From positions 1 through 37,326 of the forward strand of contig JAQTQH010000008.1 of assembly GCA_028712355.1 (NCBI GenBank): 37,326 bases of DNA, read 5' to 3'. The notes beneath the pieces were generated by a model. The model was not told the origin of the DNA. It did no database searches and saw only the letters and a list, made by a program, of their open reading frames with translations. Source of the stretch: Dehalococcoidales bacterium. Its GTDB lineage: Bacteria > Chloroflexota > Dehalococcoidia > Dehalococcoidales > RBG-16-60-22. A program made the position numbers and the translations under genes. Below are positions 2,040 to 33,633 of the stretch, piece after piece. The stretch's first letter is position 1; each line of letters opens with the position of its first letter.

Positions 2040-2692
2040 CCAGAACCAAGATTTGCGGGTTCTCGCAAGTAGAGCCTGCCATGGCGGCGGCGCAGGCAGG
2101 CGCCGATTTTATCGGCATGGTCTTTGCGCCCGGCAAGCGGCAGGTCATCCCGGAACAGGCGGTACTCATTTCCGCCGCGATTCACAGGCTGAATCTCAGA
2201 CCGGAAATCGTGGGGGTTTTCGTGAATACGCCGCCAGATGAAGTAAACCGCGCCGCCGACGACTACAGGCTCGACCGGGTGCAGCTCAGCGGCACGGAAA
2301 GCCTGGAATACTGCCGGGCAATCGCACGTCCTGTTATCAGGGTAATCCACGTTACCGCAGCCATGCCAGTTCGTGATATTCTAACCGGCATCGAAAAAAG
2401 CTACAACGCACTCGCCGATAAAGATCTCATTTTACTGCTGGACACACACCATGATACCGCCTACGGCGGCACCGGGCAGACCTTCGACTGGCATATCGCC
2501 GTAGAGATCGCCGCTCGCTTCCCGGTGATGATTGCCGGCGGGCTGAATGCCGGCAACATCGGGCGACTGGTCAAGATGGTTCACCCCTGGGGCGTTGACG
2601 TTTCCTCAGGCGTGGAAACTGGCGGCAAGAAAGACATTGAAAAAATCAGAAATTTTATCACGGCGGCAAGAAAAGCGGACAAGCAAGGATAG
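2036..2692 (+). CDS. trpF: Phosphoribosylanthranilate isomerase
   Basis: GTG start overlapping trpC stop by 4 bp; TKICGFSQVEPAMAAAQAGADFIGMVFAPGKRQV, MIAGGLNAGNI, GVDVSSGVETGGKKD. Confidence 0.95.
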   Translation: MTRTKICGFSQVEPAMAAAQAGADFIGMVFAPGKRQVIPEQAVLISAAIHRLNLRPEIVGVFVNTPPDEVNRAADDYRLDRVQLSGTESLEYCRAIARPVIRVIHVTAAMPVRDILTGIEKSYNALADKDLILLLDTHHDTAYGGTGQTFDWHIAVEIAARFPVMIAGGLNAGNIGRLVKMVHPWGVDVSSGVETGGKKDIEKIRNFITAARKADKQG

Positions 2693-2721
2693 TCTTTAAT
2701 ATAGTTATGTCATATTAAAGA
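2693..2721. terminator. AT-rich 10-bp inverted repeat between convergent genes (possible bidirectional terminator)
   Basis: tctttaatat - 9 nt - atattaaaga directly after the trpF stop. Confidence 0.45.
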
Positions 2722-2745
2722 GGCGGGACGAAGCCGCTTGCCGCC

Positions 2746-3120
2746 TCACTCTGGCTTCTCGATAACAATATCATCCCCGGAAGCTACCTTTTTAAAAGCC
2801 CGGGCATCTCCGATTATTTTACCGAATACCGTCACCGCGCTCGCCGGGCGGATTTCGCCCTGCCGGCTTGCCGGCGTAGGTCCGAAGAAGATACAAAAAG
2901 CATCGCCGTCCGGCCAGTAGCCAAGGTCGCCGGCATTAACCAGTTCCTTGCCGTTTTCCAGCGGCAGGTGTACCGGAATCGAAAAATAGACCTCATCGCC
3001 CCAGAGCTCCGCAATACTCTCAATCGGCAGCGCCTGCCAGATTGCCTGAGCGGTACGTGAATCATCGAGCACTGCCATTGCCTGAACCCGCCCTGCTTTT
3101 ATCCTGATTTGTTTTGCCAT
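2746..3120 (-). CDS. Cyclophilin-like (TM1367-type) small protein
   Basis: 124 aa; AQAIWQALPIESIAELWGDEVYFSIPVHLPLE...GDLGYWPDGDAFCIFFGPTPAS, typical of cyclophilin-like family proteins. Confidence 0.75.
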   Translation of the reverse strand: MAKQIRIKAGRVQAMAVLDDSRTAQAIWQALPIESIAELWGDEVYFSIPVHLPLENGKELVNAGDLGYWPDGDAFCIFFGPTPASRQGEIRPASAVTVFGKIIGDARAFKKVASGDDIVIEKPE

Positions 3121-3299
3121 TTTACCGCTCCTTCGCGATATTATCCTATATTATAACGTGATGGGACTCTTATTGATACATTTGTTTATGGATAGTTCAG
3201 ATTATCGGCGCCGGTATTTATGATTTGTTTACGCCGTTTCTGTCATTCTAATACTGTATAAATAGCCCGACCACCTGACGGAGTATACTGAGGACAAAA

Positions 3300-5003
3300 A
3301 TGTTTAGCTTTGCGGGGAACGGTAAGGATTCCAAAAAAGAGGAACAGGTACGAAAGCCCCTCACCATCGAAGAGTACCGCGAAAGATTAGAGCTTCTCTA
3401 CGATGTCGCTCAGCAGGCTAACTCTTTTTCGGAAGTCTCCAATTTGCTGCAGGAGATTCTGCTGGTTATTGAACAACTGCTGCACGCCTCCGCCTCTTCT
3501 TTGCTCCTGATTGACCAGGAAAAACGTGAGCTTTACGCCCAGGCTGCCGGAGGTATGGCGGCGAATACCCTGAAGCAACTGCGGTTGAACCTTGATACCG
3601 GCATCACCGGATGGGTTGCCCGCCACGCTAAACCGACTATCGTCAATGACGTCGCGAAGGACAAGCGCTTCAATAAGGAAATCGATAATCTTTCCGGGTT
3701 TGTCACCAAGTCCATGATTGCCGCACCTATCTTCCGGGGACGCGAGATTATCGGCGTGATTGAGGCGCTCAACAAGTCTGATGGTGCCACCTTTACCGAG
3801 CGCGACCTCAGCGTCCTGACCGGCTTTGCCGCCACGGAAGCCCTGATTTTACTCGTTTCTATGGCAGGCACCGCCATAAACAACATCAAGCTGCACCAGG
3901 ACATGATGGACGGCTACAAGAGCACGGTGGAAGCGCTGGTAACCGCCGCCGACGCCAAAGACCCCTATGCTTGCGGTCATTCCCGGCGGGTCAGCGAATA
4001 CACTCTGATGGCAGCCCGCAACCTGAATTTTCCCGAGGGCGAACTGCGGATTCTCGAATTCGGTGCGCTTCTGCACGATATCGGCAAAATCGGCATCGAT
4101 GACAGTATCCTGCGCCGCCCGCGCCCGCTTACCGACGAGGAATGGTATGTCGTCCGCAAACACCCCATGCGCGGCGCGAATATCATCGCGGAAATTCCTT
4201 TCCTGGAAAAAGCAAAAGACATAGTACTCAGTCACCATGAAAGGTATGACGGCACCGGTTATCCCCAGGGACTCAAGGGGGAAAACATCCCCATGGGTGC
4301 CCGCATTGTCGCCGTTGCCGATGCCTTCGATACCATGACCACCGACCATGCCTACCGCCCGGTGCTCAACACCGAAGCTGCTGTGAATGAACTCATCGCC
4401 GGGACCGGTACCCAGTTCTGCCCGGTGGCAGTGGGCGCATTTATCAATGAACTCAAGAAAAATAAAGAGCTTTATACCACAAGTAACGCCACCATTGAAG
4501 CCATGAAGGATGCCGGGATAGCAACCGCCGAAGTTTCCGCGCTGCCGGACGTCGAGGACAATGCCCCAAACAGCACCGGGAACACCGAAGAAGCCGGGCA
4601 AGACCAGCCATTCAATCAGTCTGAAATAACAGGAAAAGAACCCACCCTGGCACAGCATGGAGCCAATGCGACACAAACTGTAGAACTATCGGAACCCGCC
4701 AGGGATGGTGAATCACCGGAAGAAGAAAAAGAACTCTTCCACGGAGACATTCAGATAAGATTCGATTCCACGTCGAGCTTCGCCCAGATAAGGCAGTGTA
4801 AAGAATGCCTGCGACAGATGGCAGACCTGAAGATTGTGCTGGACAGCTGGTCGGATGAAGAAGGAACCGCCATTACCGTGCGCACGCAGCAGCCGATTGA
4901 CATGGAACGCATCCTCAGCTTGTTACCGGCGGTACAATCCGTTGAAAAACGCCGTGACAATGTTGTTATTATCACCGCTGCTGCGGCGGTAGTCATGAGT
5001 TAG
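3300..5003 (+). CDS. GAF domain / HD-GYP domain protein (putative cyclic-di-GMP phosphodiesterase) with extra C-terminal domain
   Basis: N-terminal GAF-like region; HD-GYP signatures LLHDIGKIGI and HHERYDGTGYPQGLKGENIPMGARIVAVADAFD; acidic linker, then a C-terminal alpha/beta region. Confidence 0.9.
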   Translation: MFSFAGNGKDSKKEEQVRKPLTIEEYRERLELLYDVAQQANSFSEVSNLLQEILLVIEQLLHASASSLLLIDQEKRELYAQAAGGMAANTLKQLRLNLDTGITGWVARHAKPTIVNDVAKDKRFNKEIDNLSGFVTKSMIAAPIFRGREIIGVIEALNKSDGATFTERDLSVLTGFAATEALILLVSMAGTAINNIKLHQDMMDGYKSTVEALVTAADAKDPYACGHSRRVSEYTLMAARNLNFPEGELRILEFGALLHDIGKIGIDDSILRRPRPLTDEEWYVVRKHPMRGANIIAEIPFLEKAKDIVLSHHERYDGTGYPQGLKGENIPMGARIVAVADAFDTMTTDHAYRPVLNTEAAVNELIAGTGTQFCPVAVGAFINELKKNKELYTTSNATIEAMKDAGIATAEVSALPDVEDNAPNSTGNTEEAGQDQPFNQSEITGKEPTLAQHGANATQTVELSEPARDGESPEEEKELFHGDIQIRFDSTSSFAQIRQCKECLRQMADLKIVLDSWSDEEGTAITVRTQQPIDMERILSLLPAVQSVEKRRDNVVIITAAAAVVMS

Positions 5004-5055
5004 AGCCGGCACGGTATCAAGTATCCTGTCTCTGTTGGCTCCCAAAAACGCGTCA

Positions 5056-6477
5056 TTAAGCGTTGCCACCGCGGCGGCGGTAGTAGTCCAAAACCTTCCT
5101 GAGGGCGATGGCGCTGCGGCGGGTCGAGGGAAAAGCCGGAATACCTTTTGTCTGGAATTTCTTCGTAACGCTTCGCGCCTGCTCCATGCCCCGCGGCGTG
5201 GAATAAGAAACAATGGCCATGACCGGCTTGGCAAACCGGTCTCTGATATCCGCCATCAGGGAAACCTGGCTGTTCACATCCTCATCGGTGGCGAATCCCA
5301 TGGTAATGAAGTGCGTGGAAATCATCAGTATCAGACTATCGATATTCGCATCACGCGCCAGGATTTCCATGATGCGCTTCACCTCCTTGCTGTTCGGGTT
5401 GCCGGTATCTACCGGGTTGCGGTAGCTGCCGCCGACCAGGCTGAAAAACGTAGACAGCTCATCGTAGGACTGCCGGGTGAGTAACGGTATGGCGAGACCG
5501 GCTTCGCCGAAGTCATCGGCAATAGCTACAGACTGCCCTCCGGAACCGCCCGCGACGGCAACCCGCGCGCCTTTTACCGGCGGAAGATAGATGAGCGCCT
5601 TCAGGGTATCAATCAGCTCATCCATGTCGTCCACGTTAATTGCCCCGCACTGGCGGATGGCCGAATCCCATACTGCCTGGGGTACGGCCAGCGACCCGGT
5701 ATGGGATGCAATGGCACGCCCGCCCGCCTCGGTGCGGCCGCCTTTCCAGATAACCACCGGCTTCCGGCGCGAGACCTCGCGCAATACCTTTAAAAACCGC
5801 TTCCCGTCTTTGATGCCTTCCAGGTACATGCCGATGGCTTTGGTCTCCGGGTCATGACCGAGATATTCCAGGTAGTCCGCCGAATCCAAAACGATGCCGT
5901 TGCCGAAGCTAACCGACTTGCTGATATCCATGCCCTGCAAATGGGCTTCCAGACTGAAGAAAATGGCATGGGTGCCGCTCTGCGAGATAAAACCGATTTG
6001 CCCGGATGTGCCGGTATACTGCTCTACCGTCTGCTTGATGCCGATTTTAGGATTGAAAATCCCCATGCAGTTCGGCCCGATGAGCGGGAAACCTGCCTGA
6101 TGACTCTTTTCCCGCAAAACAGCTTCCATCTTCTTTCCTTCTGCCGTCCCCGTCTCGGAGAAACCAGAGGTGAAAAAATGGGCGGCACCCACCTTCTTGC
6201 GGATGCAGTCCTCCAGGATTTGCACGCTGACCGTCCTCGGTACGGCGCAGATAACAAGGTCAATATCACCTGGGATATCCATGAGACTCGTGAAATTTTC
6301 GATCCCCAGTTTTTTGATGCCTTCAATCGATTTAGGACTGACCTGAACGGAATACAGCTTTCCTTTGAAAGCGCGCTGGGCGCGCAGCCAGCGGAAATCG
6401 CCTTCCTGCTTATCGCCGACCACGACGACGCATTTAGGATTAAACGCCCGGTCCAGCCTGGTAAAGTCTAATTCCAT
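5056..6477 (-). CDS. CoA-binding / succinyl-CoA ligase-like protein (ADP-forming acyl-CoA synthetase alpha-type)
   Basis: 473 aa; N-terminal CoA-binding Rossmann fold, GPNCMGIFNP, FISQSG, IASHTGSLA (catalytic His region). No ATP-grasp beta domain. Confidence 0.85.
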   Translation of the reverse strand: MELDFTRLDRAFNPKCVVVVGDKQEGDFRWLRAQRAFKGKLYSVQVSPKSIEGIKKLGIENFTSLMDIPGDIDLVICAVPRTVSVQILEDCIRKKVGAAHFFTSGFSETGTAEGKKMEAVLREKSHQAGFPLIGPNCMGIFNPKIGIKQTVEQYTGTSGQIGFISQSGTHAIFFSLEAHLQGMDISKSVSFGNGIVLDSADYLEYLGHDPETKAIGMYLEGIKDGKRFLKVLREVSRRKPVVIWKGGRTEAGGRAIASHTGSLAVPQAVWDSAIRQCGAINVDDMDELIDTLKALIYLPPVKGARVAVAGGSGGQSVAIADDFGEAGLAIPLLTRQSYDELSTFFSLVGGSYRNPVDTGNPNSKEVKRIMEILARDANIDSLILMISTHFITMGFATDEDVNSQVSLMADIRDRFAKPVMAIVSYSTPRGMEQARSVTKKFQTKGIPAFPSTRRSAIALRKVLDYYRRRGGNA

Positions 6478-6581
6478 ATGACCACCTCAATATTTTCGGT
6501 TAAAAAAGCACCGCAACCTCTATGACCTGTACTATTATACCGTAATTTGATGCCCTCCCTGAAATTTAAGCAGGCGGGGAT

Positions 6582-6770
6582 GCCATTGAAACCGCCATTT
6601 CAAAAGAATGGCGACAGACACAACTGCAGATTGCCGAAAGCGAATTGGTTTCCCGGATAACGTGCACAGCTTATTTGAATTTGCCCCGGGCGATAGTGAT
6701 TATATAGCCGGGGATATCCGTAGGTGAGTCTTACCCGCTGCAGGAAAAAGCAGGAATCACGCAATTTCGA
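6582..6770 (+). pseudogene. Possible decayed ORF remnant (frameshifted)
   Basis: Protein-like text resumes in successive frames: AIETAISKEWRQTQLQIAESELVSR / DNVHSLFEFAPGDSDYIAGDI / SVGESYPLQEKAGITQFRL*. No intact ORF; family not recognised. Confidence 0.3.
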
Positions 6771-6889
6771 TTGTAAGAATGATACCGCCTACGAGTAGTC
6801 GGCATTACCAGTCAAGCTTCTTGAAAATCATCTTGATTCCCCATTAGCTAAGGTGTTACTATGCAGATGGAGTCTCCCGAGGAGGCACA

Positions 6890-7774
6890 TTGCTGGGCGA
6901 ACTTGAAGCACTACTGACTGCCCTTATCTGGGCCATCGGCACATCCATGCTGAAGCCGCTCAGCCGGTTCCATCCCGTTCTCCTCAACCAGGTGCGCTGC
7001 TTCGCCGCGGCGTTCCTCTTCGTCCCGATACTGGCGGCAACGGGCGGTTTCGCCCATCTGGGAGAGGTACCACCCCCTGCAGCGCTGTTTGCCATTGCCG
7101 GTACCTTTTCCGGCATCATGATTGGGGATAGCCTTTTCGTGCTGGCGCTGCGCCATATTGATGTCTCACGTGCCTATCCCATCGCCAACTGCACCAATCC
7201 GCTGATCACCATCGTCGTCGCCTATTTTGCCCTCAGCGAGCGCATTTCCAGCCTGGCATGGGTCGGCGTGGTACTGGTGCTGGCGGGCATCTATTTCGTT
7301 GCCTTCCCCAGGGGGCCGCTTCTGGTGAAGTTCTCCGTTGATTCACCGCAGGAGAGAAAAGGCTTAATGATACTGCTGGCAACCATCTTCTTCTGGGGCA
7401 TCAGCATCATCGGCATCAAGATGGGCACCCGCGCAATGGATATGCCGACCGCCAATTTCGTCCGCTTCCTGGGGGCAGTGATACTTATGATCCCGTTTAC
7501 CTTTTCCCGATGGAAACAGTTTAAAAAAGACATTGGATGGCGCACGATGTCCCTGGCTGCTTTTAACGGCGCTTTCACCTACGGGGTCGGCGGCATTTTC
7601 TTCCTGTGGGCTTTACAGCAGACCGGGGCGGCGATGACTGCGGTACTTTCGGCAACTTCGCCACTGTTCCTTGTGCCGATGGCAGTCTTCTTCCTTAAGG
7701 AAAAGGTAACACCCAAGCTGATTATGGGAGTGGTGCTGAGCGTGGCAGGAATCTGCGTGGTCTTCCTGGCTTAG
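6890..7774 (+). CDS. EamA/DMT-family transporter
   Basis: 294 aa, about 10 hydrophobic segments, two EamA-like halves; TTG start with ggagg upstream at 6881. Confidence 0.88.
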   Translation: MLGELEALLTALIWAIGTSMLKPLSRFHPVLLNQVRCFAAAFLFVPILAATGGFAHLGEVPPPAALFAIAGTFSGIMIGDSLFVLALRHIDVSRAYPIANCTNPLITIVVAYFALSERISSLAWVGVVLVLAGIYFVAFPRGPLLVKFSVDSPQERKGLMILLATIFFWGISIIGIKMGTRAMDMPTANFVRFLGAVILMIPFTFSRWKQFKKDIGWRTMSLAAFNGAFTYGVGGIFFLWALQQTGAAMTAVLSATSPLFLVPMAVFFLKEKVTPKLIMGVVLSVAGICVVFLA

Positions 7775-7805
7775 ATTTTTTCACTTTACCCCATAGAAAA
7801 TACGC

Positions 7806-7824
7806 AGAGGGGCTTCGCCCCTCT
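7806..7824. terminator. Strong GC hairpin between convergent genes
   Basis: agagggg-cttcg-cccctct, 7-bp perfect stem. Confidence 0.6.
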
Positions 7825-7854
7825 TAAACGCCACGGCAAAATATCATCTGTAGA

Positions 7855-9279
7855 TTAGTGCCTAGATTGCCGGTATTGCACCACCTTGCTGATAGCACGG
7901 GCGGCGCGCGCGATATTCGGAAATACCGGAAAACCCGCCGCAAGGCACCGCTTCTGCAGTTCGTAAGCCACCGCCCAGTTCGGCGGCGCCCCCGCCGTAA
8001 GCACCGCCACCGCCACAGGCTTGCCGCAGGTCTTACCAACTTCAATTAACGCGGTTATCATCTGGTCTAACCTGCCTTTGCCATCCGGCAAAAGCATCGT
8101 CCAGTCCACGCTGATATGCACGATGAGCGAATCGACTAAGCCGTAACCCGCCACCAGCTTGATGATACTCTGGAAATCAGCAGGGCTTTGCACTGAGATG
8201 GGCGAGTCTACCGGATTTCTTGTGCTGGTGCCCGCCTTAGGAATTAGACGGCGCAATTCCCGCCGCATATCTTCTGGAACCGGGGGCAGGGATAACCCCG
8301 CACCGATGCAATCATCCGAAGCCAGCACGCTGATACCGCCGCCTTCCCCAATAAGGGCGGTATTGAATCCCCGCGGCGCGGGCAGGAACCTCAGAGTCAT
8401 TAATACATCAAGCAGTTCGCTAAGACCGTACACCGGAATTACTCCTGCCTGCCTGCCGAGAGCCGCCCATGCTTCGGCACTACCAGCCAGCGAGCCTGTG
8501 TGGGAATTCGCCGCCCGTTTACCCGCCTCCGTCCTGCCTCCCTTAAGAAACACCACCGGTTTACGCTGTGCCGCTTCTTTTAGAGCCCGGGCAAAACGTC
8601 TGCCGTCGCGGACGCCTTCAAGATAAAGACCGATAATACTGCTTTCATCATCCCGGGTATAGTACTCCAGCAGTTCGCTCTCATTAATATCGGAGGCATT
8701 GCCGAAGCTGGTCATACGGCTAAAGTGCACGTCCTGGGCATCACCCATGCGAATTAAATCTTCGCAGAGACCGCCGCTCTGAGAAAGAAAAGCCACCGGA
8801 CCGCTCTGATGGGAAAGACCGGGATAGAAGGTCAGTCCTGCGGGAGGAGAATAGATGCCCATGCAATTGGGACCGAGCACACGAATCCCGCCCCGGTGCG
8901 CGATATTCAGGATTTCCGTCTGGAGCCGGGAATCTTCCGCCTCACCGGTCTCGCTCATGCCTGCGGTGAACATGTGGACAAACCGGACACCTCGCTCCAC
9001 GCAGTCTTCCATCACGCCGGGAACGACCCGGGCGGGAACGGCGAAGATGACATAGTCTACCGGTTCGGGGATGTCACGCACACTCTTGAAACCGGGATAG
9101 CCCAGCAAGGTCTCGCCGGTCAGGTTGACCGGGTAAAGCTTACGCAGGACACCCATCCCCGCGATACCGGCGAAATAGCCGAACCCTGCCTTGGAAATAT
9201 CGCCGGGAGCGGCTCCCACCACCGCCACCGAACGCGGATGGAACAGGTATTCCAACTGGTGCTGTGTCTTGCTATTCAA
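7855..9279 (-). CDS. CoA-binding / succinyl-CoA ligase-like protein (ADP-forming acyl-CoA synthetase alpha-type), paralog of 5056-6477
   Basis: 474 aa; VAVVGAAPGDISKAGFGYF, GPNCMGIYSPPAG, FLSQSGG, NSHTGSLAGS. No ATP-grasp domain. Confidence 0.85.
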   Translation of the reverse strand: MNSKTQHQLEYLFHPRSVAVVGAAPGDISKAGFGYFAGIAGMGVLRKLYPVNLTGETLLGYPGFKSVRDIPEPVDYVIFAVPARVVPGVMEDCVERGVRFVHMFTAGMSETGEAEDSRLQTEILNIAHRGGIRVLGPNCMGIYSPPAGLTFYPGLSHQSGPVAFLSQSGGLCEDLIRMGDAQDVHFSRMTSFGNASDINESELLEYYTRDDESSIIGLYLEGVRDGRRFARALKEAAQRKPVVFLKGGRTEAGKRAANSHTGSLAGSAEAWAALGRQAGVIPVYGLSELLDVLMTLRFLPAPRGFNTALIGEGGGISVLASDDCIGAGLSLPPVPEDMRRELRRLIPKAGTSTRNPVDSPISVQSPADFQSIIKLVAGYGLVDSLIVHISVDWTMLLPDGKGRLDQMITALIEVGKTCGKPVAVAVLTAGAPPNWAVAYELQKRCLAAGFPVFPNIARAARAISKVVQYRQSRH

Positions 9280-9371
9280 GCAAACTCCACGACTGAGATT
9301 TCACCTATCGCAGATAAAAAATCACCCTGCTGTGAAAAACCAGTATTCTGTTTTGTGAGGAGACCGAGTGA

Positions 9372-9746
9372 TTACTGCTTGCCGGAAAGCCTTTTATCCA
9401 GCGCGACCGTGGAATCTTTCAAAGCCGCACGGATAAGCTCACCGAGCGCCAGCGCCTCGCGGACAAGCTGTTCAACCTTGGCAATCTTCTCAGAAGCGAC
9501 ACGGGCAGCTTCGTTAGCTGCCTTTTCACCGGCCAGTCTCGCTTCTTCTGCCGCCTTACGGGCATCTTTCGCCGCTTCGTCGGCACCTCTTATACTATCC
9601 TCAATCTCATCCAGAATTTGAGGAAGCGGTTGCGTCATAATTTTCTTGGGTTTGACTTCGGGGACCATTTTCTCCGCTCCTTTTTTATTTTCTAACGTTT
9701 CTTTCGATTTATCAACTCCTGACGAACTATCACTTTTCTTAAACAT
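9372..9746 (-). CDS. Small Ala/Lys/Glu-rich coiled-coil protein with PLPQILDE motif
   Basis: 124 aa; KKIMTQPLPQILDEIEDSIRGADEAAKDARKAAEEARLAGEKAANEAARVASEKIAK; N-terminal motif shared with the downstream-coordinate large ORF. Confidence 0.75.
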   Translation of the reverse strand: MFKKSDSSSGVDKSKETLENKKGAEKMVPEVKPKKIMTQPLPQILDEIEDSIRGADEAAKDARKAAEEARLAGEKAANEAARVASEKIAKVEQLVREALALGELIRAALKDSTVALDKRLSGKQ

Positions 9747-9779
9747 GGACTCTTTCCCTTACCTGACACCATCAAACAC

Positions 9780-9811
9780 CGAAAGCCTTCCGGATAAGTG
9801 ACCGGCTTTCG
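9780..9811 (-). terminator. Hairpin downstream of the large Ala-rich ORF
   Basis: cgaaagcc - 16 nt - ggctttcg, 8-bp perfect stem; no clear T-tract, so it may be a processing or attenuation site instead. Confidence 0.35.
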
Positions 9812-9849
9812 TGTTAGTTCTGTATTCCGGTTTTATCTTTGCTCTTTCG

Positions 9850-12258
9850 TTAGCGCGGCAGCAGGGCAGACAAGCCGATGCTGATTGCCACGGAACCGAA
9901 CACCGACGCCAGGATAACCAGCGCGGCAAACAGGATAAATTCGGTTGAAGAGAGTATCTTACGCACCAGTGCGACGGGCATTGCCGCCTCGGCTTTCGCC
10001 GCAGCTTCTTCGGCTGCCTTGGTCGCCGCAGCAGCAGCTTCCTGCGCGGCACGGGCTAGTTCACCGGTCTTCCGCCCAGCTTCTTCCGCCGCCGCTCGGG
10101 CCGATTCCGCAACACGCTCCGCTCTTGCCGCTGCTTCTTTGGATGCTTTCATAGCAGCTTCCGCAGATGCCTTGGATTCCTCTGCACGGCGGGTCGCTTC
10201 TTCCGCACCGGCTTTCATTGAAGCTTCGGCGGCTTCTTTTGCCTTCCGGGCCGCTTCCTCTGCTTTGGCCGCCGCTTCCTGAGCTACCTTCATGGCGGCA
10301 TCTGCTGCTGCCTTGGCATTCCGGCCGGCTTCTTCGGCTTTTGCCGTCGCTTCCTGAGCTGCCTTCATGGCGGCATCTGCTGCTGCCTTGGCATTCCGGC
10401 CGGCTTCTTCGGCTTTGCGGACGGCCTCCTGAGAAGCCTTAACCGCCGCATCCGCCGCTGCTTTAGCTGCCGCAGCAGCCTCTTCGGCAGCAGCTTTGGC
10501 TGCCTTGCTAGCTTCTTCCGCTTTGCGAGTGGCTTCATCAGCCGCCGCTTTGGCCGCCTGAGCTACTTTCTCCGCCTTAGCCGCCGCTTCTTTGGATGCC
10601 TTCATAGCTGCTTCGGCGGATGCCTTGGCTTCCTCTGCACGGGCGGCAGCTTCTTCGCCGGCTGCCTTCATCGCGGCCTCGGCAGCTTCCTTGGCAAGTC
10701 GCGCGGCTTCTTCCGCCCGGAGACCTGCATCTTCCGCAGCTTGCTTCGCCAGCTTTGCCGCTTCTTCTGCTCTCGCTCCGGCTTTTTCCGCCGACTGCTT
10801 GGCTTCCTGGGCTCTGGCCGTAGCTTCTGCCCCGGCTGATTTCATCGCGGCGGCAGCAGAATCACGAGCATTAACCGATGCCTTAGTAGCTGCATCCGCA
10901 GCTAACTCGGCTGCGCGGGCCAGGTCAGCCGCCTTGGAAATCAATTGATGGAGCGTCTGAGACGCCACTTCAATTGCCTCATCACCGGCGATATCCGCCT
11001 GCTCCGCCTTTTTCCGGGTCTTATCGGCTACATCGAACCCAGTCGCCGCAATCTCTTTCGCTTCTTTCCCGGCTTCGTCAACCCTGGTCGCAATCTTACC
11101 GGATACTTTGACCGCCGCATTGATGGCATCGTCTCCGGCGACCACCGCGACCTCAGACTTCCGGGCTACTTCCTCGGCAGCCTGATATGCCGACGCAGCG
11201 GCCCTCTTGGCCACCCGTCCCGCCGATTCTGCCGCGATGGCAGTCTCAGCATTAGACACCTTGGCCACTTTCGCAGTAGCTGCACGGGCTGACTTGGCGC
11301 TCTCCGCAGCTTTTTCCCCGGAGGCCTGCGCCAGTTGAATCGCTTCTTCAACAGACTGTTTCGCCATCCTGGCTTTTTCTTCAGCATTGATGGCGGCTTC
11401 TTCCGCAATGCGGGCCGCTAACTCAGCGGCCTCTTTAGCCGACATATCGACTTCCTCGGCCCTGCGGCTTGCTTCTTCCGCCGCTAACTTGGCAGCTTTA
11501 GCAGTTTCTTCCGCACGCGCTGCTGCCTCTTCGGCACGGCTTGCAGCTTCTTCCGCGGCATTAGTAGCGGCTTCCGCAGCAGCCCGCGCCGCTTCACTGG
11601 CTTCCTCGGCGAGCCGCGCTGCTTCTTCCGCCTGCCGACGGGCTTCCGCCGCGGCTTCTTGCGATTCTCTCTTGGCAGCTTCCGCAGCTTGTTGAGCAGC
11701 CAGGCTTGCCTGTTCCGCTCGCTGTGCCGCCTCTTCCGCTTTCTTATTGGCATCAAGAGCAGCTTGCTCCGCTCTCTTGGCAGCTTTCGCTGAAGCCAGA
11801 TCTGCTTCTTTCGCCGCCGCTGTAGCGGCAGCGCTGGCTTCCTCCGCCCGGCGGGCGGCTTCTTCCGCAGTCTGGCGGAAGGCTTCGGCAGCCTTCTTGG
11901 CGCCTTTGTCCGCATCATCAGCTTTGCGGACGGCTTCTTCCGCTGCCATGCGGGCGGCTTTTGCCGTTTGTTCCGCCTTGGCCGCAGCTTCTTGAGCTGA
12001 TTTAGTGGCATCAGCCGCAGCTTTCTGTGCCGACCCTCGGGCTTCTTCCGCCCGTTTAGCCGCTTCATCGGAAGCTCTGGTCGCCGAAACTGCTGCCTGG
12101 CTGGCAGACCGGGCGGCTTCCTCCGCCCGCCGCGCCGCCTCCGCCGCTGCCCGGATGTTGTCATCCATTTCATCCAGAATCTGGGGGAGCGGTTTAGTTA
12201 AAATCCGCGGAGATTCCTTGGGAGCTTCCGAAACCGGTTTTTTAGATCTGTCCGCCAT
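9850..12258 (-). CDS. Giant Ala-rich repetitive coiled-coil protein with C-terminal transmembrane helix
   Basis: ATG at 12258 (MADRSKK) with AGGAGG upstream is preferred over the track start at 12285. About 802 aa, mostly KAEEAAK-type repeats; C-terminus ILSSTEFILFAALVILASVFGSVAISIGLSALL is a predicted TM segment. Confidence 0.85.
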   Translation of the reverse strand: MADRSKKPVSEAPKESPRILTKPLPQILDEMDDNIRAAAEAARRAEEAARSASQAAVSATRASDEAAKRAEEARGSAQKAAADATKSAQEAAAKAEQTAKAARMAAEEAVRKADDADKGAKKAAEAFRQTAEEAARRAEEASAAATAAAKEADLASAKAAKRAEQAALDANKKAEEAAQRAEQASLAAQQAAEAAKRESQEAAAEARRQAEEAARLAEEASEAARAAAEAATNAAEEAASRAEEAAARAEETAKAAKLAAEEASRRAEEVDMSAKEAAELAARIAEEAAINAEEKARMAKQSVEEAIQLAQASGEKAAESAKSARAATAKVAKVSNAETAIAAESAGRVAKRAAASAYQAAEEVARKSEVAVVAGDDAINAAVKVSGKIATRVDEAGKEAKEIAATGFDVADKTRKKAEQADIAGDEAIEVASQTLHQLISKAADLARAAELAADAATKASVNARDSAAAAMKSAGAEATARAQEAKQSAEKAGARAEEAAKLAKQAAEDAGLRAEEAARLAKEAAEAAMKAAGEEAAARAEEAKASAEAAMKASKEAAAKAEKVAQAAKAAADEATRKAEEASKAAKAAAEEAAAAAKAAADAAVKASQEAVRKAEEAGRNAKAAADAAMKAAQEATAKAEEAGRNAKAAADAAMKVAQEAAAKAEEAARKAKEAAEASMKAGAEEATRRAEESKASAEAAMKASKEAAARAERVAESARAAAEEAGRKTGELARAAQEAAAAATKAAEEAAAKAEAAMPVALVRKILSSTEFILFAALVILASVFGSVAISIGLSALLPR
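10282..10431 (-). repeat. 75-bp (25-aa) tandem duplication inside the Ala-rich gene
   Basis: Two 75-bp units; a 55-bp core (10287-10341 and 10362-10416) is identical. Encodes AEEAGRNAKAAADAAMK(A/V)AQEA(T/A)AK twice. Confidence 0.95.
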
Positions 12259-12338
12259 CTTATTATCCTCCTGAAGGCACCTCACTTGAATCAGGCGCCA
12301 TACAACTCAGATAGTTACACCAGTTCCCGAAAATAAAA

Positions 12339-29107: not shown

Positions 29108-29187
29108 TGCTCATCCTAAAATATTTTCTTAAAATAGCCCCCCAAACCCTTGAAATTTGTCCGGAAATACTTTATACTTTATACTTA

Positions 29188-29217: not shown

Positions 29218-30570
29218 GTGAAAACAGAATCACAAATGAGCTTGTTTGACGTGTCCTCAGACGACAAACCCCCCAGTAACAGTTTCAACAGCAGGGAGGC
29301 TGAAGAGCCTCCAAGTACCAGCTTGTCCTCAAAAGACGACGAACCTCCTCTTAAACGCAGCAACGCCACCAGCCGCGACCGGTTTTTCCGCCACGTGCCC
29401 GAAAGTGATTGGAATGACTGGAAATGGCAGTTCCGCAACCGTATCACCACTGTTGATGAGCTAAGGAAAGTTTTTCCTCTTTCCGCCGAAGAACCGGCAC
29501 AGCTCAAGCTGGTCATGATGCGGTATCCCCTCTCGGTGACCCCTTACTACCTCTCGCTCATCAATCCGGATGACCCCGCCGACCCCGTGCGCCGGCAGGC
29601 TATCCCCTGCCTGGACGAGGTCACCATGGGCTCTGTAGGCATGGAAGACCCTCTCGAAGAGAAGCGCGACTCCAAGGTGCCCGGACTGGTGCACCGTTAC
29701 CCGGACCGCGTCCTGATGGTACTCACGGACATCTGCCCCATGCTCTGCCGCCACTGCACCCGCAAGCGGGAGTGGCAGCACGGCGGCTGGGTCCGCAGCA
29801 TGGCGGAAATCGAACGAATGCTGGACTATATCCGCAAGCACCGGGAAGTACGTGATGTCATCATCTCCGGCGGCGACCCCTTGACCCTGGCGACCAGCCG
29901 ACTGGAAGAAATCATCTCGCGCATCCGAAGCATCGAGCACGTGGAGATTATCCGTATCGGTACGCGCTGTCCGGTGGTCATGCCGCAGCGTATCGATGAT
30001 GAGCTCTGCGCGATGCTATCTAAATACGGACCCATCTGGGTGAATACTCACTTCAACCACTATCACGAGTTGACCCCGGAAGCCGCCCGCGCCTGCGATA
30101 AGTTATTGCGCGCCGGCGTGCCGGTGAACAACCAGTCGGTACTGCTGCGCGGCGTCAACGACTCGGTAGAGACGCAGTTGAAGCTGGTGCGCGGTCTCCT
30201 GCGCATCAAGGTACGCCCGTACTACCTCTTCCAGTGTGACGAGGTACAGGGTACGGAACACCTGCGCACACCGGTCGAAGTTGGTATCAAGATAATCGAA
30301 GGCTTGCGCGGTCATACGTCGGGTCTGGCGGTGCCGCACTTCGTAATTGACCTGCCCTTTGGCGGCGGCAAGGTGCCCCTCCAGCCGAACTACGTACTGG
30401 AGCATAACAAAGACGAACTGCTCATCCGGAACTACCAGAACAAACTCTTCCGCTTCCGCAACCCGCACGGTGAAGAGAGCCCCGATGCTGTTCTGGAAGC
30501 GGTGGCACTGACCTATCAGCCAAACAGCATTACGAAGGAAAACACCGATGCGGATAGGATTATCGTTTGA
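29218..30570 (+). CDS. KamA-family radical SAM aminomutase (lysine 2,3-aminomutase-like)
   Basis: 450 aa, GTG start; CPMLCRHCTRKREW (CxxxCxxC), VIISGGDPL, NNQSVLLRGVNDSVETQ, RPYYLFQCDEVQGTEHLRTP, GLRGHTSGLAVPHFVIDLPFGGGKVPLQPNYV. Confidence 0.94.
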   Translation: MKTESQMSLFDVSSDDKPPSNSFNSREAEEPPSTSLSSKDDEPPLKRSNATSRDRFFRHVPESDWNDWKWQFRNRITTVDELRKVFPLSAEEPAQLKLVMMRYPLSVTPYYLSLINPDDPADPVRRQAIPCLDEVTMGSVGMEDPLEEKRDSKVPGLVHRYPDRVLMVLTDICPMLCRHCTRKREWQHGGWVRSMAEIERMLDYIRKHREVRDVIISGGDPLTLATSRLEEIISRIRSIEHVEIIRIGTRCPVVMPQRIDDELCAMLSKYGPIWVNTHFNHYHELTPEAARACDKLLRAGVPVNNQSVLLRGVNDSVETQLKLVRGLLRIKVRPYYLFQCDEVQGTEHLRTPVEVGIKIIEGLRGHTSGLAVPHFVIDLPFGGGKVPLQPNYVLEHNKDELLIRNYQNKLFRFRNPHGEESPDAVLEAVALTYQPNSITKENTDADRIIV

Positions 30571-31552
30571 CCTGAAAGACGCCCTTCCGCACCCAATCGG
30601 TGAGCCGGAAGACGCTTTAGAAGAATATGACTCTGCCGAGACGGTGCAGATTATCGAAGATACCATCTCGGCAGAGGGACACAGGGTTATCCGTCTGGGC
30701 GGCGGTCAAGAATTCCTGAACAACATCCTGCACGAGAAGGTCGACTGCGTTTTCAACATTGCCGAAGGCCGGGGCAGCTACCGCAGCCGTGAATCGCAGG
30801 TGCCTGCCGTCCTGGAGATGCTGGACATATCGTACTCCGGTTCCGACCCACAGTGCCTTGCCGTGTGTCTGGACAAGCCGCTGACCAAGCAACTGGTGGC
30901 GGCGGCAGGGATTAAAATACCACAGTCACTAACTGTTGCTGATACTAAAGAACTCGCCACCGTCAACTGGCCGGACTTCCCTTTTCCGGCAATCATCAAA
31001 CCCGCCTTCGAAGGCTCCAGCAAGGGCGTGCGCCTCACTTCGCTGGTGGAGGACGCTCGCCAGGTGCAAGAATCCGTAATTAATCTGCTCAAGATCTACA
31101 ATCAGCCGGTCATGGTTGAAGAATTCATCGATGGAGATGAGGTTACGGTAGGCATGGTGGGTAATACGCCCCCGCAGGTGCTCGGCATGATGCGCATTGT
31201 CCCCAAGACTGTTAACAGACACTTCGTCTACTCCCTGGAAGTCAAGCGGGACTACAAGAGGCTGGTCGAATATGAATGTCCGGCAAAGCTCGCGGAGTCA
31301 ACCCTGAAGGCAATCTCCGATGCCAGCCGGAAATCATTCGAAGTGCTGGGCTGCCGCGACTTTGCCCGGGTTGATTTCCGCATCGACGCTTCGGGCGTTC
31401 CTTATTTCCTGGAAATCAACCCGCTGCCGGGATTAGGCACTTACAGCGACCTGGTCATCATGGCGCTCAAGGTGGGCTGGACCCACCACGGGTTAATCAG
31501 CGCGGTATTAAACGCCGCGTTGAAGAGGTACCCGCAATGGCAAAAAACGTAG
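30548..31552 (+). CDS. ATP-grasp ligase, D-Ala-D-Ala ligase-like (copy 1)
   Basis: 334 aa; VFNIAEGRGSYRSRESQVPAVLEMLDISYSGSDPQCLAVCLDKPLTKQL, ATP-grasp IIKPAFEGSSKGV, VEEFIDGDEVTVG, FARVDFRIDASGVPYFLEINPLPGLG. Overlaps kamA by 23 bp. Confidence 0.9.
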   Translation: MRIGLSFDLKDALPHPIGEPEDALEEYDSAETVQIIEDTISAEGHRVIRLGGGQEFLNNILHEKVDCVFNIAEGRGSYRSRESQVPAVLEMLDISYSGSDPQCLAVCLDKPLTKQLVAAAGIKIPQSLTVADTKELATVNWPDFPFPAIIKPAFEGSSKGVRLTSLVEDARQVQESVINLLKIYNQPVMVEEFIDGDEVTVGMVGNTPPQVLGMMRIVPKTVNRHFVYSLEVKRDYKRLVEYECPAKLAESTLKAISDASRKSFEVLGCRDFARVDFRIDASGVPYFLEINPLPGLGTYSDLVIMALKVGWTHHGLISAVLNAALKRYPQWQKT

Positions 31553-32532
31553 CCATCGTTTACAGCGAGCCGGTTACCAGCCACTACCACGCCACCGGTG
31601 AGGAAGCCGCCGAAGCCGGGGTGCTCAATGCTTTAGCTGCGGTACATCAAGCCCTGCGGGAGCTTGGTTACCGCGTAACGCGGGTACCTCTGGCGCCTCA
31701 GGATTCCATACCTGAAAAACTAAGCCGGTTAAATGCCGACTTGGTCTTCAATCTTTTTGAGGGATTCCCCGGCAACCCCGCCACCGAAGCCGAGGTGCCG
31801 GAGTTCCTCACCCGGTGTGGTATTCCTTATACCGGATGCGGAGCGGAAAGCCTGAGGACGGCACTCAATAAACCGGCTACCAAGACATTACTCAAGCAAG
31901 CCGGGATACCGACGCCGGACTTTCAACTGCTCACGCCGGATACCATCACTGATTTTCGCCTCAATTACCCGTGCATCGTCAAGATGAGCGGAGAACACGC
32001 CAGCCACGGGCTATCAGAAAAGAGTGTCGTCCATGACGCTGCTTCGCTGGCGGAACAGGTACGCCGGATTGTCTCCCTTTACGGCGGCAGCGCCCTGGTG
32101 GAAGAGTTCCTCACGGGACGCGAGTTCAACATTACCGTCATGGGAAATTCAAAATGCAGCGTACTGCCGCCATCGGAAATATGCTACTCTTTGCCTGAAG
32201 AGATGCCTCAAATCCTCACCTTCGCCGCTAAATGGGAAGAGGAAAGTGCCTACTACAAGGGCACGAAGGCAGTCTGCCCTGCCCCCATCACTCCCGCCCT
32301 GCGCCGCGATATCGTGCGGATAGCGCAGAAGACCTTCCGGCTGCTGGGATGCCGCGGCTACGCGCGCGTGGACTTGCGCCAGGATAGCGCAAAAAGGTTA
32401 AATGTAATAGAGGTAAACCCCAACCCGGATATCTCCCCGGGCACAGGAGCCGCCCTACAATCAGAAGCAGCGGGCATGTCCTATAGCGAACTTATCCGCA
32501 GAATCGTGAACTTCGCTCAGGAAAAGGACTGA
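31537..32532 (+). CDS. ATP-grasp ligase, D-Ala-D-Ala ligase-like (copy 2, divergent)
   Basis: 331 aa; LVFNLFEGFPGNPATEAEVPEFLTRCGIPYTGCGAESLRTALNKPATKTLL, VEEFLTGREFNITVMG, YARVDLRQDSAKRLNVIEVNPNPDISPGTG. Overlaps copy 1 by 16 bp. Confidence 0.88.
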   Translation: MAKNVAIVYSEPVTSHYHATGEEAAEAGVLNALAAVHQALRELGYRVTRVPLAPQDSIPEKLSRLNADLVFNLFEGFPGNPATEAEVPEFLTRCGIPYTGCGAESLRTALNKPATKTLLKQAGIPTPDFQLLTPDTITDFRLNYPCIVKMSGEHASHGLSEKSVVHDAASLAEQVRRIVSLYGGSALVEEFLTGREFNITVMGNSKCSVLPPSEICYSLPEEMPQILTFAAKWEEESAYYKGTKAVCPAPITPALRRDIVRIAQKTFRLLGCRGYARVDLRQDSAKRLNVIEVNPNPDISPGTGAALQSEAAGMSYSELIRRIVNFAQEKD

Positions 32533-32534
32533 AC

Positions 32535-33014
32535 ATGAATCTGAAAATACGCCCCATGACTCATCCGGACAAGGCGGCGATAATACGCATTCTCAAAGAA
32601 TTACCGGAATTCCTGCCCTTCGAGGTCATTATCGCCGAGGAAGTAATTGATGCCTATTTGCAAGACCCTTCAGGGTCGGGCTATTGCATTGAAGTGGCCG
32701 AGATTGATGGTACGGTGGTGGGCTACATCAATTACGGGCCGACTCCGGTCACCCAGGGCACCTGGGACATTTACTGGATGGCGGTAGCTGCCGACCGCCA
32801 GGGACAGGGCATCGGAAAGGCGCTTATCCGCTCTGCGGAAAGACACATTGCGAAAGCACAGGGCAGGCTTATTATCATCGAAACCGCCGGCAAACCCCAA
32901 TACGAAAGGACCCGCCGCTTTCACTTTGCCCAGGGTTATCACGAAGTAGCCCGCGTCCCGGAATACTACGCCCCCGGCGATGATAAACTGATTCTGTGCA
33001 AACGTATAGAATAG
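32535..33014 (+). CDS. GNAT-family N-acetyltransferase
   Basis: 159 aa; YWMAVAADRQGQGIGKALIRSAERHIA (acetyl-CoA site), IIETAGKPQYERTRRFHFAQGYHEVARVPEYYAPGDDKLILCK. Confidence 0.92.
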   Translation: MNLKIRPMTHPDKAAIIRILKELPEFLPFEVIIAEEVIDAYLQDPSGSGYCIEVAEIDGTVVGYINYGPTPVTQGTWDIYWMAVAADRQGQGIGKALIRSAERHIAKAQGRLIIIETAGKPQYERTRRFHFAQGYHEVARVPEYYAPGDDKLILCKRIE

Positions 33015-33027
33015 AGAGAAAAGACAC

Positions 33028-33633
33028 ATGCCAGAATGGCTGGAACAACTTGTGCTGGCGTTTGTCCCGCTGTTTATCGTACTGGACTCGCTGGGCAACA
33101 TGCCCTTTGTTGCCACTCTGACAGAAACGAAGACCGCAGCAGAGCGACGCCGGGTCATTAATGTCGCCGTCATGACCGCCGCCCTGGTTGGACTGGCTTT
33201 CCTGTTTTTCGGCAAACTTATCCTCAGCGTGCTTGGGATTTCGGTAGGCTCCTTCGCGGTTGCCGGCGGTATTATTCTGCTGGTACTGGCAATCCGTTAC
33301 ATGACCACCGGCAAAATGATTGAATCTTCCCGCGAAGAAATGGTGGGGGTGGTGCCTCTCGGCACCCCGCTCACGGTGGGGCCGGCTGCTATTACCACCC
33401 TGCTGCTTCTGGCCAGCCAGTCCCCGCTCTATACCGTTTTACTTGCTTTTGTACTCAACCTGATTCTCGTATGGGTTATCTACCAGTTCAGCGGCAGCTT
33501 CGTCAGAATCGCCGGCAAAGGCGGACTCGCGGTTGTCTCCCGAATCTTTGACCTGCTCCTGGCAGCGATAGCGGTAAGCATGATTATCCGCGGGCTTACC
33601 TTGCTCGGCATCCTGAGCGCTGCCGGCGGTTGA
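33028..33633 (+). CDS. MarC-family integral membrane protein
   Basis: 201 aa; FVPLFIVLDSLGNMPFVATLTE, GVVPLGTPLTVGPAAITTLLLLA, LLLAAIAVSMIIRGL. Confidence 0.9.
   Translation: MPEWLEQLVLAFVPLFIVLDSLGNMPFVATLTETKTAAERRRVINVAVMTAALVGLAFLFFGKLILSVLGISVGSFAVAGGIILLVLAIRYMTTGKMIESSREEMVGVVPLGTPLTVGPAAITTLLLLASQSPLYTVLLAFVLNLILVWVIYQFSGSFVRIAGKGGLAVVSRIFDLLLAAIAVSMIIRGLTLLGILSAAGG

Follow-up and report, generated by a model that had tools for sequence, protein, structure and literature searches.

A conserved four-gene KamA, ATP-grasp and GNAT operon of Dehalococcoidales as a candidate pathway for acetylated beta-lysine peptides

What might an aminomutase, two ATP-grasp ligases and an acetyltransferase make when their genes lie end to end? 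The question is raised by a contig of a Dehalococcoidales bacterium (GenBank assembly GCA_028712355.1, JAQTQH010000008.1), whose 37,326 nucleotides are referred to here as the window and on which a KamA-family radical-SAM enzyme is followed by two ligases with the fold of D-alanine-D-alanine ligase (Ddl), termed LigA and LigB, and by a GNAT N-acetyltransferase. A preliminary description of this DNA had reported four consecutive plus-strand genes, of which the first three overlap by 23 bp and 16 bp and the last begins after a gap of 2 bp, and the coordinates of the open reading frame calls agreed with it. The linkage of the four genes was found to be well supported, and we have high confidence that they work together. 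Roughly even weight is given to the fuller model, in which they would form a single translationally coupled biosynthetic operon that makes beta-lysine, couples it through an amide once or twice and acetylates the result. The cassette is a real and conserved four-gene pathway that appears not to have been described before: literature searches, outside which most subscription papers fall, turned up no earlier account of it.

Using LigA as the sole query, 48 loci were returned, in which neighbors were counted only where the flanks were long enough. KamA was found beside LigA in 39 of 42 loci, LigB in 41 of 41, GNAT in 37 of 40 and all three in 30 of 34. The locus nearest to that of the window, in a Dehalococcoidales metagenome-assembled genome, had a LigA identity of 82%. 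As loci fetched with LigA are related to one another, two further tests of co-occurrence were made, one by a scan of the class Dehalococcoidia and the other with loci from Planctomycetota.

For the class scan, 98 Dehalococcoidia genomes were searched with the Ddl-domain family, with a strong Ddl defined as a match of at least 160 bits. A strong Ddl was identified in 41 of the 98 genomes, two adjacent weak matches in 16 and a LigA-like match alone in 3, giving 19 genomes with weak matches. None of the 98 combined a strong Ddl with the cassette ligases, where approximately eight would be expected were the two independent and kinship ignored. KamA was sought in 14 of the weak-pair genomes and 10 of those with a strong Ddl. 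It lay immediately upstream of the adjacent pair in all 14, five of which (G039, G057, G066, G074, and G082) were known beforehand to carry it and nine were not; no match at an E value of 1e-60 was obtained in any of the 10 strong-Ddl genomes. The Planctomycetota loci held the same gene set, reordered in L102 and L117 and in places partial, and in one genome of this phylum (G152) the cassette was split into KamA-LigA (L111) and LigB-GNAT (L112). The KamA-LigA join was constant across phyla, and this pair recurred as a minimal unit, for example in Dehalococcoides-like genomes. Conserved co-occurrence with kamA and a GNAT gene, set as a test by the preliminary description, was strong in the LigA-fetched loci, in Dehalococcoidia and in Planctomycetota. 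Within the window's family the cassette is patchy, being present in 13 of 31 genomes (many of them incomplete), which fits an accessory trait or accessory metabolite.

The window's own genome (1.53 Mb, 96% complete) holds only one KamA. Pfam matches were to radical SAM and LAM_C, with the C-terminal end covering only 60 of the 127 LAM_C model positions. The protein scored above the NCBIfam cut-off for the KamA subfamily (350 versus 199) and below those for the glutamate and arginine aminomutases, for EpmB of EF-P beta-lysylation (244 versus 369 bits) and for AblA (476 versus 525 bits), the cassette relatives reaching 462 to 489 in the last case. Five lysine 2,3-aminomutase residues, namely C125, C129, and C132 of the CxxxCxxC Fe-S motif, R134, the carboxylate arginine, and K337, the pyridoxal phosphate lysine, were invariant across 26 of 26 cassette KamA proteins. 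Asp was likewise found in all 26 at the two positions that discriminate for lysine, 293 and 330, which bind the epsilon-ammonium group in lysine 2,3-aminomutase. As both are kept, and the arginine enzyme BlsG has Thr at 330, lysine is indicated as the substrate; the lysine type of the aminomutase was in this way upheld, and there is moderate confidence that the cassette KamA, judged from its residues, makes beta-lysine.

Both ligases matched Pfam Dala_Dala_lig_C (E values of 3e-35 and 3e-28), and their predicted structures were confident (pLDDT of 89.8 and 91.4), with Ddl structures as the best matches. All NCBIfam Ddl cut-offs were missed, LigA scoring 170 and LigB 149 bits against the 243 bits of PRK01372, a threshold that a control Ddl encoded beside ftsQ exceeded with 299 bits. 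When numbered on Escherichia coli DdlB, the ATP-grasp residues K97, K144, K215, R255, D257, and N272 were invariant in both ligases, while position 270 was always E in LigA and either E or D in LigB. The D-Ala pocket of DdlB comprises H63, S150, Y216, S281, and L282. In both first ligase alignments, H63 was replaced by E in every member (38 of 38 and 33 of 33); LigA further differed from DdlB in Y216 to R and L282 to D, and LigB in S150 to A or G, Y216 to W and G276 to D. Trees that included bona fide Ddl encoded beside ftsQ or murC separated the Ddl group from the cassette ligases with 100% support. LigA and LigB fell in different parts of the trees, each spanning Chloroflexota and Planctomycetota, and both are thus old parts of the cassette. 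The preliminary description had doubted a cell-wall Ddl role from two motifs, which are present as LigA residues 289 to 301 (EINPLPGLGTYSD) and LigB residues 292 to 304 (EVNPNPDISPGTG). Its doubt was borne out by scores far under the cut-offs, the replaced pocket residues and the lack of any further Ddl, or of Mur ligases, in the genome, and the grouping with bona fide Ddl that it had named as a counterindication was not seen. We therefore hold with high confidence that LigA and LigB are not cell-wall Ddl.

In the proposed pathway, KamA would turn L-lysine into beta-lysine, as its residues suggest. LigA and LigB, given their fold and retained ATP and Mg machinery, would each use ATP to convert a carboxylate into an acyl phosphate and then couple it to an amine, yielding a dipeptide or tripeptide that contains beta-lysine, and GNAT would acetylate a free amine and so lower the charge. 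The existence of KamA-LigA as a minimal unit and the separability of LigB-GNAT (L112) suggest the order of steps, in which LigA probably acts directly on the KamA product, with LigB and GNAT extending and capping it. The substrates, step order, product, and role of the cassette are inferred. Most plausibly, the pathway yields a small soluble metabolite that is either retained in the cell or exported, and our leading guess for the role of this product, made by analogy with the abl and N-acetylglutaminylglutamine amide (NAGGN) systems, is that of a compatible solute or stress protectant.

Several observations weigh against this model, including some that count against an obligatory tie to beta-lysine. 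LigA and LigB occurred without an adjoining KamA in L100, L101, L104, and L072; in G037 and G154, KamA was located elsewhere in the genome, away from the ligases. LigA relatives with no neighboring KamA were also found in some Planctomycetota, Chloroflexota, and Thermotogota. The solo Thermotogota relatives share E63 and D282, and these two residues were consequently dropped as proof of beta-lysine binding. In a wider set, LigA position 216 was R, E, or W depending on lineage; this may mean that the substrate varies and that the related products form a family, or that the substrate is not decided by this position. The plasmid-borne relatives of GNAT, among the annotated ones inspected, stood alone, and GNAT was rejected as a plasmid marker of the cassette. 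No riboswitch or other regulatory RNA was identified upstream of the operon among the seven sources searched, and the cassette neighbors included no universal or stress-linked fifth gene.

Ligases (with or without GNAT) apart from KamA, the variable position 216, the Thermotogota relatives, and the score of KamA under the AblA cut-off would all be accommodated if the product were an acetylated small peptide or amide whose ligase substrates do not include beta-lysine, with KamA acting on another amino acid or supplying one optional block and the product depending on lineage. This alternative deserves serious attention but is considered unlikely, since D293 and D330 do not vary among the cassette KamA proteins, KamA accompanies the ligase pair in every one of the 14 Dehalococcoidia genomes and KamA-LigA recurs on its own.

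It is improbable that the ligases are a divergent Ddl, or that their product is a modified peptide of the wall or envelope for which KamA supplies beta-lysine as a building block. Such a role would agree with the Ddl fold, with the wide reporting of 'ddl' across Dehalococcoidia (PMC10284905) and with the mutual exclusion of cassette and strong Ddl in the class scan (0 of 98 against about eight expected, kinship ignored). However, MurC to MurF were not found in the window's genome, where the single Mur_ligase_M match was FolC, and the only other Ddl-domain matches were two weak ones inside one 1083-aa frame that we infer to be carbamoyl-phosphate synthase. Dehalococcoides and Dehalogenimonas are reported to be without peptidoglycan, and a loss of core peptidoglycan genes is reconstructed before Dehalococcoidales, with loss in orders that include it (PMC10284905). 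The replacement of H63 and Y216 and the fully supported separation from Ddl in the trees argue in the same direction. As strong Ddl and cassette ligases were never found together in the class scan, the leftover 'ddl' of wall-less lineages is plausibly the cassette pathway rather than a peptidoglycan relic, and the operon can thereby make bacteria that have no classical cell wall appear to retain a cell-wall gene.

A KamA enzyme and an acetyltransferase also make up ablAB, the osmolyte pathway for N-epsilon-acetyl-beta-lysine (PMC1224877), and the cassette could be read as such an operon with GNAT as AblB and the ligases unrelated. This is very improbable. The window's GNAT is a Pfam GNAT family member of 159 aa whose nearest solved relative is 2r7h ('putative D-alanine N-acetyltransferase'), a Desulfovibrio protein, the AblB model (TIGR03827) had no match in the genome, and the ligases are as well conserved as KamA. 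TIGR03827 was present above its cut-off in three Dehalococcoides-like genomes (G007, G020, and G048), which have KamA-LigA at one site and a KamA-AblB fusion at another. One fusion was checked, that of G007 (L108, positions 5647 to 7872), where it scored 754 versus 525 bits for AblA and 346 versus 205 bits for AblB, which suggests synthesis of N-acetyl-beta-lysine in that genome. The absence of ablB from the window's genome and the coexistence of a separate AblA-AblB fusion with KamA-LigA indicate that the cassette is probably not the N-acetyl-beta-lysine route and that KamA-LigA probably has another product; the distinction from ablA/ablB drawn at the outset was accordingly retained. In the same Dehalococcoides-like group (L068 of G007, positions 7157 to 10042, and L069), the genes downstream of KamA-LigA encode a Fur-family regulator and a ZnuA/ABC/ABC-3 metal-uptake set. 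A link to zinc uptake was set aside, as this arrangement was confined to Dehalococcoides-like genomes and was judged a lineage-specific neighbor.

Least probable of all is that KamA serves lysine catabolism and its neighbors are a separate module merely co-transcribed with it: clostridial lysine fermentation starts with lysine 2,3-aminomutase and the modules of the cassette are separable, but no other lysine-fermentation gene was found in the cassette or its recurrent neighbors (a genome-wide search was not made), and the KamA-LigA join does not change across phyla.

The features of the locus are listed in Table 1. Consensus matches of the sigma-70 type, such as the one ahead of the operon, numbered six in the region against 2.9 expected from shuffles. 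The MarC gene starts 13 bp after GNAT, a placement shared by six fetched loci besides the window, and the other neighbors confined to subsets of loci were an MFS transporter (approximately five) and a 5'-nucleotidase-like protein (approximately seven).

Table 1. Features of the KamA-LigA-LigB-GNAT locus, in window coordinates
Feature	Coordinates	Strand	Start, length or basis
Radical-SAM aminomutase of the KamA family, predicted to be a lysine 2,3-aminomutase (alpha-lysine to beta-lysine)	29218..30570	+	GTG start, 450 aa
LigA, ATP-grasp carboxylate-amine ligase, Ddl fold, not Ddl	30548..31552	+	ATG, 334 aa
LigB, second ATP-grasp ligase, Ddl fold, separate ancient clade	31537..32532	+	ATG, 331 aa
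GNAT N-acetyltransferase	32535..33014	+	ATG, 159 aa
MarC/NAAT-family membrane protein, possible transporter, optional neighbor, not core	33028..33633	+	Family match
Possible sigma-70-type promoter (TTGAAA-17-TATACT) ahead of operon	29150..29178	+	Consensus match only

Relatives of the ligases were also recorded in other settings. A solo LigA-like ligase lies beside F-type ATP synthase genes in L074 and in the similar L075, L076, L082, and L086 (Chloroflexota f15), these genes being annotated in L074 and judged by the same layout in the other four. LigA/LigB-like ATP-grasp genes with 31 to 37% identity are carried by rhizobial symbiotic plasmids (L065, L066, and further examples) of Sinorhizobium, Rhizobium, Mesorhizobium, and Bradyrhizobium. 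Thermotogota-type genomes (L155, positions 2103 to 4719, L158, L159, L160, and L115) hold another Ddl-like ATP-grasp family in a conserved pair with a protein of approximately 545 aa; it has T at DdlB position 63 and L or M at 276, and the one member tested, that of L155, had no NCBIfam match. Elsewhere in the window, the minus strand at 9850 to 12285 encodes an 811-aa protein that consists almost entirely of repeats rich in Ala, Glu and Lys and has a hydrophobic stretch at its C terminus; the DNA of this region shows strong AT skew (-0.42).

If the proposed chemistry is right, the operon gives widespread sediment bacteria a route to peptides that needs no ribosome and uses two new specificities of Ddl-fold ligases. 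A broader proposal, held somewhat more tentatively than the model itself, is that acetylated beta-lysine di- and tripeptides may be a widespread class, act as a stress solute of wall-less Dehalococcoidia and of Planctomycetota and account for many 'ddl' annotations in peptidoglycan-free bacteria.

Among known systems, the Ddl and Van ligases share their fold and ATP/Mg residues with the cassette ligases, which differ in the replacement of H63 and Y216, in scores of 149 to 170 versus 243 bits, in forming separate clades and in the absence of a Mur pathway. The blasticidin S cluster resembles the cassette in placing a KamA-family aminomutase, the arginine 2,3-aminomutase blsG, near an ATP-dependent carboxylate-amine ligase of ATP-grasp type, which uses a beta-amino acid, attaching beta-arginine. 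Unlike the cassette, it has an arginine-type enzyme with T at 330, one ligase and a nucleoside acceptor, and no GNAT in the stretch seen. On plasmid pTHIMO01 of Thioflavicoccus mobilis (L067, positions 3611 to 11296), a LigB-like ATP-grasp gene adjoins a divergent KamA, behind which lie two proteins that match no Pfam family above the cut-off; this cluster differs in its SbnA/SbnB-type 2,3-diaminopropionate genes and class-III aminotransferase, with no GNAT seen, and a diaminopropionate/beta-lysine conjugate is a possible product. With ablA/ablB, the cassette shares a lysine aminomutase of KamA type upstream of an acetyltransferase, with beta-lysine as the likely intermediate, but two ATP-grasp ligases lie between them, its GNAT is not AblB and its KamA is under the AblA cut-off. 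In the NAGGN pathway, one protein, Ngg, carries out acetylation as well as peptide bond synthesis, and AsnO amidates (PMC8070244). This pathway has no aminomutase and uses glutamine, and neither Ngg nor AsnO is present in the operon, whose only products are KamA, two Ddl-fold ligases and one GNAT; as proposed for the cassette, acetylation and peptide bond formation give an acetylated dipeptide osmolyte with no ribosome. The joins made in the proposed pathway thus have precedents, that of an aminomutase with a nearby ligase in the blasticidin S cluster and that leading to acetylated dipeptide osmolytes in Ngg and AsnO.

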